From positions 36,360 to 100,359 of the forward strand of contig NZ_SULJ01000010.1 in the NCBI RefSeq assembly GCF_007115105.1: DNA of 64,000 nt. The letters run 5' to 3'. Made by a program: the position numbers and the translations under genes. The notes beneath the pieces were generated by a model that was not told the DNA's origin, did not search any database, and saw only the letters and a program-made list of their open reading frames with translations. The first letter of the stretch is position 1; each line of letters opens with the position of its first letter. Positions 4,307-37,035 of the stretch are shown one piece after another. Origin of the DNA: Clostridium sp. HBUAS56010 (lineage in GTDB: Bacteria > Bacillota > Clostridia > Lachnospirales > Lachnospiraceae).

Positions 4307-6367
4307 ATGAACCAAGAATGGAGAGCTTTTAACGGCGGTGCCTGGGAACGCGAAGTCAACGTCAGAGATTTTATCCAGAAGAACTACACTCCTTATGACG
4401 GCGACGATTCTTTCCTGGCTGGTCCTACAAAAGCAACCAATGAGCTTTGGGCACAGGTTCTTGAATTATCAAAGAAAGAAAGAGAAGCTGGCGGTGTATT
4501 GGATATGGATACAAAGACTGTTTCCACCCTTACTTCTCACGGACCAGGATATTTAGATAAAGAAAAAGAAACAATTACAGGATTCCAGACGGATAAGCCT
4601 TTTAAGCGTTCTCTTCAGCCTTATGGCGGAGTCCGTATGGCTGAAAAAGCCTGTGCAGACAATGGATACACCCTTGATCCTGAAATCAAGGAATTCTTTA
4701 CCACTCATAGAAAGACACACAACGCCGGTGTATTTGATGCTTATACACAGGAAATGCGTGACTGCCGTTCCAGCCATATTATTACAGGACTTCCAGACGC
4801 ATATGGCCGCGGACGTATCATCGGTGACTACCGCCGTGTAGCTCTTTATGGAATTGACCGTCTGATTGAAGATAAAGAAAATCAGAAAAATTCCACTCCA
4901 AGCATTATGACAGAAGAGGTGATCCGTGACAGAGAAGAACTTTCCGAGCAGATCCGTGCACTGAAAGATTTAAAGAAACTGGGTGCAATCTACGGTTATG
5001 ATATCTCCAAACCAGCAACAAACGTTCAGGAAGCAATCCAGTGGACTTATCTGGGTTACTTAGCTGCTGTTAAGGATCAGAATGGTGCTGCAATGTCCTT
5101 AGGACGTACTTCAACCTTTATTGATATCTACGCAGAAAGAGATCTGGCAGAAGGAACCTTTACCGAAGAACAAATTCAGGAATTTGTAGATCACTTTGTT
5201 ATGAAACTTCGTCTGGTGAAATTTGCCCGTACTCCAGAATACAATGATTTATTCTCCGGAGATCCTACCTGGGTTACAGAATCCATCGGTGGTGTTGGCA
5301 TTGACGGACGTCATCTGGTATCAAAAATGTCCTTCCGTTACCTTCATACTTTAAATAACCTTGGAACTGCTCCAGAGCCAAACTTAACTGTTCTCTGGTC
5401 CACCAGACTTCCAGAAAACTTCAAACGCTTCTGTGCAAAAACCTCCATTCAGTCCTCTTCCATTCAGTATGAGAACGATGATCTGATGAGAGTTACCCAC
5501 GGTGATGATTATGCCATTGCCTGCTGTGTATCTTCTATGAGAGTCGGTAAAGAAATGCAGTTCTTCGGAGCCCGTGCCAACCTTGCAAAATGTCTCTTAT
5601 ATGCAATCAACGGCGGTGTAGATGAGATCACAAAGAAACAGATTGGACCAAAATTCCGCCCCATCACTTCCGAATATCTGGACTATGATGAGGTTATGGA
5701 TTCCTACAAGCAGATGATGAAATGGCTTGCATCTGTTTATGTAAACGCTTTAAACATCATTCACTACATGCATGATAAATACAGCTATGAGCGCATTCAG
5801 ATGGCTCTTCATGATAAAGAAGTAACCCGTTGGTTTGCAACCGGTATCGCTGGACTTTCCGTTGTGGCAGACTCCCTTTCCGCTATTAAATACGCAAAGG
5901 TAAAGACAATCCGTGATGAGAATGGAATTGTTACTGACTATGAAATAGAAGGTGACTTCCCAAAATACGGCAACAACGATGATCTGGTTGATCAGATTGC
6001 CCACGATCTGGTTCACACATTTTTAACTTATGTAAAGGAAAACCACACCTATCGGAACGGTATTCCTACAACCTCCATCTTGACAATTACTTCAAACGTA
6101 GTATATGGTAAGAACACAGGAGCAACTCCTGACGGACGTAAGAAGGGCGACGCATTTGCACCTGGTGCAAATCCAATGCACCACAGAGATTCTCATGGTG
6201 CTGTTGCATCTTTGGCATCCGTTGCAAAACTTCCATTTAAAGATGCACAGGATGGAATTTCCAATACCTTCTCCATTGTTCCAGGTGCTCTTGGTAAGGA
6301 AGATCAGATTTTCACAGGAGACTTAGAGGTTGATTTAGAGCTGGCTTTAAACGAAGACCAGAAATAA
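4307..6367 (+). CDS. pflB: Formate C-acetyltransferase (PFL) core subunit lacking the glycyl-radical domain
   Basis: Catalyses CoA + pyruvate to acetyl-CoA + formate. The 686-residue chain matches PflB from its N-terminus ([10 protein letters not shown]) through the active-site cysteine pair ([20 protein letters not shown]) to the region '[17 protein letters not shown]'. It then stops, exactly in the linker before the glycyl-radical domain; classical PFL continues for about 70-80 residues to RVSGYAV. The missing domain is encoded separately at 6643-6888. The stop is followed at once by a good ribosome site and the next gene, so this looks like a designed split rather than a sequencing frameshift. 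GGAGGT lies 9 bp before the ATG. The activating enzyme is in the same operon. Confidence 0.92.
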
Positions 6368-7740: not shown

Positions 7741-7777
7741 ATAGAAAAATGTATAGAATATAAGGAGGTAATTTATC

Positions 7778-7948
7778 ATGGCACGTGTTATTAGTGATGC
7801 TTGTGTTAGTTGCGGAACATGCGAAGGCGAATGCCCAGTAAGTGCAATCAGCCAGGGTGATTCCCAGTTTGTTATTGATGCAGATTCCTGTATCGATTGT
7901 GGCGCTTGTGAAGGTGTATGCCCAACAGGAGCTATTTCCGAAGCTTAA
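7778..7948 (+). CDS. 2[4Fe-4S] clostridial-type ferredoxin
   Basis: A 56-residue bacterial ferredoxin with two CxxCxxCxxxCP motifs (Cys 9, 12, 15, 19 and Cys 38, 41, 44, 48), the standard two-cluster fold and no extensions. It carries low-potential electrons in anaerobic metabolism (pyruvate:ferredoxin oxidoreductase, hydrogenase, radical SAM enzymes). AAGGAGGT lies 8 bp before the ATG. Its position directly after pflA suggests it might reduce the activating-enzyme cluster (inference). A strong terminator follows. Confidence 0.95.
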   Translation: MARVISDACVSCGTCEGECPVSAISQGDSQFVIDADSCIDCGACEGVCPTGAISEA

Positions 7949-35637: not shown

Positions 35638-36564
35638 CTATAACGATTTGTTATACTCTGTTAATCGTTTCTTCAATTCACTGATATAATAACTGGCTTC
35701 CGGGGAAAGCTCTTTTTTCTTCTGCTTCACATATCCAAAGGTCAAAAACCGGTCACAGTCTTTCACTTTTAATGCCTTTATGCCCTGAGCTGCATACTCC
35801 TGTGAAACGAAATCAATACCCATACAACATACATCTGTATGCTTTAACATACTTTGAATCATGTAGTCACTGTTGGTGCACACTGCATTATTTAAATGCT
35901 CTGTGTCCAAAACCCCCACATTGATCCGTTCAATATGATGCTCCATGGCAAAGAAATCTTCGGTCCCCTCTACAAACTTCAATTGTTTTAACTCGTCAAA
36001 CTCCAGATACTCTCTATCATACCAAGGGTGGCTCTCTCCCATATAAATACAGATTCCTCTATCATCAAGGGGATGGTATTCCAATTTCTTATGCCACATG
36101 ATATGGCGAAAACATGGAAGCTGGGCATGTGCCAGATAAACAATTCCAATCTCTGATACATGTTCTGTCACATCGTCTGTTATTTCTTCCACCGTCCCTT
36201 CCCGATATCCAAACTGAATCTCTCTGTCCTGGTATTTATTATAAATTTCCGCCATCAGTCTGGTTAATATGCTGCTCTGATAGCCAGATACACAAAAATG
36301 ATTGCCGGTCTGCTTCTGAACAAGAGCCTGAATCATATTGGAATTTTTCAAAATAGAACGTGCATAGCCATACAGAAGATTCCCCTGCTCCGTAATCTTC
36401 ATTCCCCGGCTGTTTCGTTCAAATAACTGTACTCCCAGTTCCTTTTCCAGATTTGCAATCACCTTGCTCACATTAGGCTGGGAGGTGTATAACTGTTCTG
36501 CTGCCTTATTTAAACTTCCATGGTCAGCTGTTGCCACAAAGTATTCTAACTGTTTGATTTCCAA
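35638..36564 (-). CDS. LysR family transcriptional regulator
   Basis: About 308 residues: N-terminal winged helix 'IKQLEYFVATADHGSLNKAAEQLYTSQPNVSKVI' and a LysR effector domain from about residue 90. I chose the TTG at 36564, which has AAAGGGG 8 bp upstream and gives the family-typical start just before IKQLEYF; the ATG at 36618 has no ribosome site. It lies 82 bp before the NikA-like gene on the same strand. A structured leader ending in a terminator precedes it, and the shared inverted repeats suggest it controls itself, the tandem leaders and the transporter. Confidence 0.88.
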   Translation of the reverse strand: MEIKQLEYFVATADHGSLNKAAEQLYTSQPNVSKVIANLEKELGVQLFERNSRGMKITEQGNLLYGYARSILKNSNMIQALVQKQTGNHFCVSGYQSSILTRLMAEIYNKYQDREIQFGYREGTVEEITDDVTEHVSEIGIVYLAHAQLPCFRHIMWHKKLEYHPLDDRGICIYMGESHPWYDREYLEFDELKQLKFVEGTEDFFAMEHHIERINVGVLDTEHLNNAVCTNSDYMIQSMLKHTDVCCMGIDFVSQEYAAQGIKALKVKDCDRFLTFGYVKQKKKELSPEASYYISELKKRLTEYNKSL

Positions 36565-36620
36565 CTGGAGTTCCCCTTTCTCATTGCAGTATTGGTCCTT
36601 ATATCGTATAAGAATCATGC

Positions 36621-36760
36621 AAAAAAAGCCGATCCTGTCATGCGGTTACAGGAGCGGCTCTTTCGCAGGAGTCATGATCCCTCATGGGTCAAATGAAGGA
36701 TGCGATCAGAGGATTAGTCTGATTAGAATATTCACACGCAGTTAGCTAAAACTAACTGTT
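36621..36760 (-). ncRNA. Structured leader, copy A (lysR-proximal), ending in a terminator
   Basis: Minus-strand RNA of about 137 nt. In order: an AGUUAG/CUAACU hairpin coincident with the operator; a UCAGA/UCUGA hairpin with loop CUAAUCC; an AUCCUUCAU/AUGAGGGAU hairpin with loop UUGACCC; and a terminator AGCCGCUCCUGU/ACAGGAUCGGCU followed by U7. It is nearly identical to copy B 205 bp away. It lies between its promoter and the TTG start of lysR, so it can act as an attenuator. I recognise no known riboswitch class. Confidence 0.65.
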
Positions 36761-36763
36761 AAT

Positions 36764-36792
36764 ATAGTAACACAGCCAAAGAAAAAAATCAA
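36764..36792 (-). promoter_or_regulatory. Promoter of copy A / lysR
   Basis: The minus strand has TTGATT (36787-36792), 17 bp, TACTAT (36764-36769). The operator CAGTTAG-CTAAAA-CTAACTG (36739-36758) begins at the expected transcription start. Confidence 0.6.
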
Positions 36793-36825
36793 GGATTTAT
36801 AGAGAAAAGAATTATCATCTAACGG

Positions 36826-36966
36826 CAAAAAAGCCGATCCTGTCATGCGGTTACAGGAGCGGCTTTTTTGTAGGAGTCATGATCCTTCACGGGTCAATGA
36901 AGGAGAATCTCAGAGGGTTAGTCTGATGTATAGAATATTCACACGTAGTTAGTATCAACTAACTGA
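36826..36966 (-). ncRNA. Structured RNA, copy B (free-standing), ending in a terminator
   Basis: About 139 nt, with the same order of hairpins as copy A: AGUUAG/CUAACU (different 6-nt loop), UCAGA/UCUGA, UCCUUCA/UGAAGGA with loop UUGACCCG, and an identical terminator (36832-36864). Differences between copies sit mainly in loops or keep pairing (a U-G pair in copy A is U-A here). It ends in its own terminator before the copy A promoter and encodes no protein, so it is a candidate small RNA. Confidence 0.6.
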
Positions 36967-36970
36967 CTAT

Positions 36971-36999
36971 ATATTAGCACAGGACAAACTAAAAATCAA
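36971..36999 (-). promoter_or_regulatory. Promoter of copy B
   Basis: The minus strand has TTGATT (36994-36999), 17 bp, TAATAT (36971-36976), the same arrangement as at copy A. The operator AGTTAG-TATCAA-CTAACT (36947-36964) starts at the expected +1. Confidence 0.6.
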
Positions 37000-37035
37000 G
37001 GATTCCTGTTGAAATCATTTCTCATTTACCCGTTA

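Follow-up and report, generated by a model that had tools for sequence, protein, structure and literature searches.

The repeated unit analysed here is best explained as a trans-acting, iron-sparing small RNA (sRNA) present in tandem, predicted from its sequence to be controlled by a DtxR/IdeR-type operator and to pair with mRNAs of iron-rich proteins, a reading to which we give a probability of about 75%. It lies in a 64,000-nt stretch of the genome of Clostridium sp. HBUAS56010 (hereafter the window), and we infer that both copies are transcribed, that an iron-dependent repressor of the DtxR/IdeR family silences them, and that the RNAs pair with their targets and repress them.

Two units of about 138 nt, copies B and A, were both confirmed on the minus strand within positions 36621-36999 (Table 1). 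A repeat search aligned B with A in three blocks, with 93% identity in 71 nt on the terminator side, 81% in a block of 32 nt and 73% in one of 98 nt, at start-to-start spacings of 205, 204 and 207. Promoter spacing is equal in the two copies, and an 18-bp dyad begins 6 nt past each -10 hexamer. The initial annotation of this DNA had described a repeated structured unit with its own promoter, operator and terminator, in copies 205 bp apart with the same promoter spacing and an identical terminator; repeat search, alignment and folding bear this out, with spacings of 204-207. When folded in stretches that took in 8-11 nt ahead of the predicted +1, the full copies proved more stable than every one of 200 dinucleotide shuffles (z -6.3 for copy B, -4.6 for copy A), and without the terminator the signal was weaker (z -2.5 and -3.1, respectively). 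A generic promoter and terminator scan at the locus listed neither promoter and no terminator, which we ascribe to its cut-offs, since the promoter of copy B has 8 of 12 consensus bases where 9 are needed and the terminator loop has 9 nt where the maximum is 8. A dyad-like box, TGA(G/T)AA.TNNT(N)TC, is conserved 10-11 nt upstream of the -35 hexamer in most aligned copies.

Table 1. Predicted features of the two sRNA copies, the proposed ferredoxin target and the operator sites of the genome; positions are those of the window.
Feature	Position	Strand	Basis and remarks
sRNA copy B, predicted transcript	36826..36964	(-)	+1 at 36964, terminator U-run end ~36827; alignment; covariance-model match 169 bits (model partly built from both copies)
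sRNA copy A, predicted transcript	36621..36757	(-)	+1 at 36757; alignment; covariance-model match 151 bits (model partly built from both copies)
Copy B promoter	36971..36999	(-)	TTGATT, 17 nt, extended TAATAT; conserved CTTG / TG.TA..AT columns in alignment
Copy A promoter	36764..36792	(-)	TTGATT, 17 nt, TACTAT; alignment
Operator dyad AGTTAGTTGATACTAACT, copy B	36947..36964	(-)	Also first 18 nt (5' hairpin) of predicted RNA
Operator dyad AGTTAGTTTTAGCTAACT, copy A	36740..36757	(-)	Also 5' hairpin
Seed core TGTGAATATTCTATACA, copy B, proposed mRNA pairing	36927..36943	(-)	Near-invariant columns; complement near Fe-S gene starts
Shortened seed TGTGAATATTCTA, copy A	36724..36736	(-)	Without TACA; alignment, sequence
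Copy B hairpin 2, loop CUAACCC	36911..36925	(-)	Folding, alignment; helix altered or absent outside genus
Copy A hairpin 2, loop CUAAUCC	36707..36721	(-)	Folding, alignment
Copy B hairpin 3, loop UUGACCC	36884..36903	(-)	Two-sided changes in 6/7 pairs, 39 sequences
Copy A hairpin 3, loop UUUGACCC	36679..36699	(-)	Covariation; single-sequence MFE of copy A favours a different fold here
Copy B linker AUGACUCCU	36872..36880	(-)	ACUCCU is anti-Shine-Dalgarno-like; mean unpaired probability 0.85, 39 sequences
Copy A linker AUGACUCCU	36667..36675	(-)	Alignment
Intrinsic terminator, copy B, loop AACCGCAUG	36827..36863	(-)	Two-sided changes in 12/12 pairs
Intrinsic terminator, copy A	36622..36658	(-)	Identical to terminator of B
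Upstream box TGAGAAATGATTTC, copy B, candidate regulator site	37011..37024	(-)	Conserved; kept in most aligned copies
Upstream box TGATAATTCTTTTC, copy A	36804..36817	(-)	Alignment
Proposed target site ATGTATAGAATAT, ferredoxin 5' UTR	7749..7761	(+)	13-nt complement to sRNA segment; abuts AAGGAGG
Proposed target gene, 56-aa 2[4Fe-4S] ferredoxin	7778..7948	(+)	Pfam Fer4; same window as sRNA copies
Exact operator site			Before FecCD permease gene
Exact operator site			Before Peripla_BP_2 binding-protein gene
Exact operator site			Before AraC regulator gene, then Peripla_BP_2 gene
Exact operator site			Before AraC-Peripla_BP_2 fusion gene
Exact operator site			Before Crp/Fnr-like regulator gene adjoining Peripla_BP_2 gene
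One-mismatch operator sites			Before feoB; DtxR-family regulator; FTR1; DUF3793-flavodoxin operon
One-mismatch operator sites			Before Fe/Mn SOD; ABC ATPase resembling sufC; Peripla_BP_2 gene; AraC-Peripla_BP_2 fusion

The repeat is a conserved RNA family beyond chance, as judged from its full copies in congeners and from covariation. A DNA search found a third copy elsewhere in the same genome and matches in all 25 genomes of the genus, which we take to be Lacrimispora; 24 hold a full copy and one, G012, only a 3' remnant. Covariance-model searches, which the initial annotation had named as a check, recovered a family with homologues both in these congeners and in several other Lachnospiraceae genera. 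A first model (L053 and L062 were excluded from model building) placed the unit in 7 out of a sample of 299 genomes from the family, its own genome counted, and a second, broader one in 10 of 397, a count that takes in its own genome, one congener and a weak match in G066 (E 4.8e-4); on 391 genomes of the class the broader model returned its own genome and one congener only, all of these large searches having stricter filters by which weak matches may be lost. In the DNA search G043 gave a match of 34 nt. Using a pattern that itself requires the dyad, a scan of named genomes returned 39 stretches; the records include Lacrimispora, Hungatella and Brotaphodocola catenula, the last with two copies, as well as some labelled Clostridium.

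Across 39 distinct sequences, standard pairs fill 98.1% of the paired cells (90.4% when shuffled), 70 cells carry two-sided changes (11.5 shuffled) and 20 of the 30 pairs show such changes (6.5 shuffled), in an alignment fitted to the structure, which favours the structure. Covariation is found in hairpin 3 (6 of 7 pairs) and in the terminator (12 of 12); the 5' helix is invariant, with 6 of 6 pairs in 39 of 39 sequences, and in a wider alignment the 5' dyad differs in a single sequence out of 24 (L159:5441). On the first alignment RNAalifold proposed a long-range helix in which no pair had two-sided changes, and a hand-set structure was used instead. Two loops had been described earlier as conserved: UUGACCC is indeed mostly kept across relatives and CUAACCC mostly within the genus. 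Outside the genus the CUAACCC hairpin is changed or missing, and it was for this reason rejected as a universal seed. Conservation is strongest in the operator and in a segment without structure, rather than in any core resembling an aptamer. None of the 4227 Rfam families matched anywhere in the window at the gathering threshold, and at the locus the three matches below threshold are at chance level (best 18.4 bits against 55); a riboswitch or another RNA of a known Rfam class was accordingly rejected, in agreement with the initial annotation. A dual-function peptide was also rejected, the sole short frame seen by eye (ATGACTCCT...) being broken in members such as L034, L047, L054 and L099.

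The dyad AGTTAG-N6-CTAACT connects the units with iron uptake. It has 8 exact sites in the genome against 0 for a reversed-pattern control; three are the sRNA genes and the other five lie 25-37 nt before the genes given in Table 1. Thirteen further sites have one mismatch, eight of them ahead of iron-type genes (Table 1) and five not before a gene that could be tied to iron; in number they do not exceed the control (21, with the 8 exact sites included, against 18). The hcp gene was not counted as an operator gene, as its near-operator is nearby but not upstream. In the 25 genomes of the genus, 145 exact sites were found against 6 for the control (row sums, sRNA genes included). Seven of nine further operator loci in relatives have an ORF facing the site (L193 and L198 have none), and three of these seven ORFs begin, by eye, like binding-protein lipoproteins. 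Together, these sites suggest that the dyad is an iron-regulon operator common to the sRNAs and to siderophore-type, feoB and FTR1 genes.

Boxes of the IdeR/DtxR family are described as CCTAA repeats, two of which with a 4-bp spacer make up a dimer site, and repressed IdeR boxes overlap the start site or the -10 hexamer (PMC10317159, excerpt). The TTAG-N6-CTAA at the predicted +1 agrees with the consensus of that excerpt (PMC10317159) in spacing and in the outer bases; the operator lacks the inner C/G of these repeats as well as the full 19-bp box. Copies in other genera have another dyad of this kind that overlaps the -10 hexamer. That the metal would be iron rather than manganese is deduced from the membership of the regulon; for the DtxR-family regulator, encoded at L087:9569-9946, the nearest NCBIfam family is MntR, below the cut-off.

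Immediately after the dyad, the segment CRUGUGAAUAUUCUAUACA is nearly invariant across genera and partly unpaired, with a mean unpaired probability of 0.69 (0.80 for the UUGACC loop and 0.85 for ACUCCU). When 922 gene starts were ranked by pairing energy, the 16 Fer4-motif genes were not better than the 906 others (Mann-Whitney p 0.16-0.20), and this general target ranking was rejected as uninformative; within it, pyruvate:ferredoxin oxidoreductase (PFOR) and ferredoxin pair through the seed segment. A signal came from the seed alone, in a scan for exact complements of its core of at least 10 nt at -45 to +15 of gene starts. After dropping starts with a weak start score, and with 17 of the 922 being repeats from overlapping stretches, 6 of 905 distinct starts matched; over 300 shuffles of the core the mean was 0.71 and the highest count 6. 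They belong to ferredoxin, a monomeric [FeFe]-hydrogenase, PFOR, an EFR1-type ferredoxin, the adenylylsulfate reductase alpha subunit, whose gene stands in front of a Fer4 subunit gene, and one unassigned protein. Complements are thus found in 4 of 16 Fer4-motif genes and in 2 of 889 others (p 1e-6), in a test that is partly after the fact, as two of the four matching genes had been noticed first; leaving the repeats in, on all 922 starts, gives the same outcome. In the sense orientation, no match of at least 10 nt occurred at any of the 922 starts.

With the first core, a hold-out of 333 gene starts, which held no Fer4 gene, gave no match of at least 10 nt. The core was redefined once, after the first scan, to the CAUGUG variant that is common in the family, and with this variant desulfoferrodoxin and an elongation-factor-like gene appear in the hold-out. 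Over the 1238 pooled distinct starts the CAUGUG core has 5 matches of at least 11 nt against 0.37 expected from shuffles, 0 of 300 of which reach 5; they are the hydrogenase (15 nt), ferredoxin (13), PFOR (11) and desulfoferrodoxin (11), assigned by family searches, and the elongation-factor-like gene (11), named by eye. At 10 nt the numbers are 8 against 1.5 (reached by 2 of 300 shuffles) and at 12 nt 2 against 0.11 (3 of 300). The segment of copy B pairs better than 200 of 200 shuffled segments with ferredoxin, hydrogenase, aprA and desulfoferrodoxin; for PFOR the energy is unremarkable, 12 of 200 shuffled segments equalling that of copy B. Copy A, which lacks UACA, has a weaker predicted pairing to the ferredoxin mRNA (-12.9 against -19.9 kcal/mol for copy B) and a slightly better one to PFOR and hydrogenase, suggesting that the copies may have divided their targets.

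The sites themselves are widely kept. Among 29 genomes (counts that omit G180 for ferredoxin, its start not being found, and G020 for PFOR, which gave no match), the ferredoxin site persists in 21, with 13 nt in 19 of them and 11 nt in the other two; it is gone in seven, and G220 has a different match. Within the genus the sequence flanking the ferredoxin site is well conserved too. The PFOR site AATATTCACAT, 18-19 nt ahead of the start codon, keeps 10-11 nt in 21 of 29 genomes and 9 nt in six, and is lost in two. Outside the genus, 6 of 7 genomes retain all 11 nt of it, while the upstream 44 nt share 10-21 identities. Seven congeners (G002, G006, G008, G009, G012, G014 and G015) are without the ferredoxin site, and in the same seven the PFOR site is reduced to 9 nt in six and absent from G008. 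One full sRNA copy is present in each of the seven except G012, which has the remnant. A lone full copy is likewise found in G010, where both target sites are intact. The erosion in the seven congeners fits a decay of the proposed circuit there, and it also shows that the sites are not indispensable in them. The G012 remnant (L053:6988-7059) comprises only the 3' end of the RNA and stands, by eye, apparently directly behind an upstream reading frame, in a genome where the PFOR and ferredoxin sites are eroded as well.

An iron-regulated sRNA might also act otherwise, by binding a protein or by pairing to other mRNAs through UUGACCC or ACUCCU, the complements at Fe-S genes being secondary or accidental. 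Besides the seed, the UUGACCC loop and the ACUCCU linker are conserved and unpaired, ACUCCU pairs with generic Shine-Dalgarno (SD) sequences in many of the top predictions, the Fer4 energy ranking is not significant, and six of the seven congeners with eroded seed sites have retained the RNA. We nonetheless consider this possibility unlikely in view of the seed enrichment at Fer4 genes, the absence of sense matches and the conservation of the PFOR site amid diverged flanks. Highly improbable, in our estimate, is a second alternative, in which GUGAAUAUUCUAUACA would be a transcription-factor site at the DNA level and the matches before PFOR, ferredoxin and hydrogenase sites of the same factor. 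The self-complementary centre GAATATTC and the position of the segment just past a promoter would suit such a site, but the genes match different overlapping parts of it (ferredoxin nt 27-38, PFOR nt 22-31, hydrogenase nt 22-33) in one orientation only, and half of the would-be dyad is absent in PFOR and ferredoxin. Rex was rejected as a candidate at the PFOR site, where no dyad was seen by eye in a comparison with the Rex consensus.

The initial annotation had considered copy B a free small RNA and copy A the attenuated leader of lysR, and had suggested a ligand- or protein-sensing leader whose duplicate might serve as a decoy or sponge RNA or for graded termination. For copy B, its own promoter and terminator, as read from the sequence, support the proposal. 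The A-type copy is indeed followed by lysR in the window and in L038, L040, L046 and L050; in L036, however, the first gene after the copy is methyltransferase-like, and in L037 the copy is followed by a gene read from the other strand. The neighbours of other copies are, for instance, topoisomerase-like or DUF3793-like, and over the 31 listed copies the downstream genes differ in identity, distance and strand. No fixed place before a cognate gene, as a riboswitch or attenuator leader would have, was found among these copies. The promoter and terminator predicted from the sequence, together with the varied gene context, are as would be expected of a free-standing transcript. Judged by this variation, lysR is not bound to the RNA by any fixed relation in cis. 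In the stretch 36544-36618 of the window, an ATG at 36618 in the lysR frame nearly touches the terminator of copy A; lysR probably starts instead at TTG 36564, about 60 nt past the terminator, with its own Shine-Dalgarno sequence. The idea of a ligand-sensing leader or decoy likewise fits poorly with an operator that appears to belong to an iron regulon and with a conserved unpaired segment that matches mRNAs of iron-rich enzymes. Least probable of all is a copy A acting in cis as a ligand- or protein-sensing lysR attenuator with copy B as its duplicated decoy: the terminator, ending a few bases ahead of the in-frame ATG, could attenuate and the four relatives share the lysR order, but the same copy precedes other genes elsewhere, no alternative antiterminator pairing was seen by eye in the alignment, and conservation peaks outside any aptamer-like core.

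For an iron-sparing sRNA, the favoured reading, the following course can be proposed. When iron is plentiful, a DtxR/IdeR-family repressor would sit on the operator at +1 and keep both copies off. When iron is low, the repressor would leave and the two RNAs would be made alongside siderophore-type, FeoB and FTR1 uptake systems and flavodoxin. The exposed seed segment would then pair with mRNAs of iron-rich proteins in their 5' regions and so lower the synthesis of these proteins: just upstream of the SD in PFOR and ferredoxin, over the start codon in desulfoferrodoxin and farther upstream in [FeFe]-hydrogenase, the adenylylsulfate reductase mRNA probably being another target. Extra contacts might be made through the anti-SD-like ACUCCU linker and the C-rich loops. 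Much more tentatively, and at somewhat less than even odds, we suggest that this DtxR-controlled RNA, with the operator inside its own 5' hairpin, throttles the whole route from PFOR through ferredoxin to [FeFe]-hydrogenase in Lachnospiraceae fermentation at low iron while the same operator turns on flavodoxin, in a ferredoxin-to-flavodoxin swap, copy B being directed to ferredoxin and PFOR and copy A chiefly to sites of the PFOR/hydrogenase type.

Comparable strategies are described in other bacteria. PrrF1 and PrrF2 of Pseudomonas aeruginosa are tandem iron-repressed sRNAs that spare iron by repressing iron-containing proteins (PMC10597452, excerpt). The unit described here shares with them the tandem arrangement and, as proposed from sequence, iron sparing; they are Fur-regulated (PMC9410917, excerpt), whereas our unit has a DtxR-like operator and no Rfam match. 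In Gram-positive bacteria, IsrR of Staphylococcus, whose stem-loops have unpaired C-rich regions, and FsrA of Bacillus subtilis are iron-sparing sRNAs with iron-containing enzymes as targets (PMC9410917, excerpt). Both are Fur-regulated and use C-rich pairing motifs, in contrast to the AU-rich best-supported seed of 17-20 nt found here, again with no Rfam match. MrsI of Mycobacterium tuberculosis, also an iron-sparing sRNA, is predicted to be controlled by IdeR, which belongs to the DtxR family of regulators (PMC9410917, excerpt). Its likeness to our unit lies in the type of regulator, predicted in our case, and it differs in coming from another phylum and in the lack of an Rfam match here. 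MrsI is a single gene, and the LhrC family of Listeria has CU-rich pairing regions. LhrC is a multicopy sRNA family induced by cell-envelope stress via LisRK (PMC4132741, excerpt), LhrC5 being tied to ferritin in a 2026 paper (PMC13350326, excerpt). It resembles our unit in being multicopy and differs in its LisRK-dependent stress induction, as opposed to the predicted iron operator. As stated in the excerpt of PMC9410917, RyhB, PrrF1/2, MrsI and FsrA have targets in common and neither synteny nor sequence. No score here exceeded the gathering threshold for RyhB, PrrF, FsrA or any other Rfam family, and the unit is probably a new RNA alike in function to RyhB, PrrF, FsrA and IsrR without a relation at the Rfam level.

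The central fermentation of Clostridia relies on iron-sulfur enzymes. The iron-sparing sRNAs named in the excerpt of PMC9410917 (RyhB, PrrF, MrsI, FsrA and IsrR) include none from Clostridia, and a literature search for an iron sRNA in these bacteria found no report of such an RNA in Lachnospiraceae. If our reading is correct, an already known strategy would have a new instance in these gut and soil bacteria, in which an RNA links the iron regulon to the enzymes making acetyl-CoA and hydrogen, so that the output of fermentation would be governed by the supply of iron. Iron sparing would then have been invented independently once more, the tandem arrangement of PrrF included, with an AU-rich seed and fermentation targets as the distinct features of this case.

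Some observations concern the history of the copies. Thirteen congeners have two copies some 3.8 kb from each other, and in L036, L038 and L037 B and A are separated by an esterase-like gene and, on the other strand, a glycosidase-like one; the tandem in the window may accordingly be what remains after a deletion between two such copies. Its two terminators are identical to each other, yet unlike those of orthologous copies, which suggests gene conversion between the tandem copies. In Brotaphodocola catenula the copies L159:6456-6582 and 5441-5565 are about 0.9 kb apart with one gene between them, and the Hungatella effluvii copy (L155 near 7151) carries, by eye, an insertion of about 90 nt with repeat-like parts between the seed and hairpin 3. 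Finally, in L151, L165 and L148 the gene right behind the sRNA is, by eye, DUF3793-like, and in L151 and L165 a gene that by eye is flavodoxin-like comes next.
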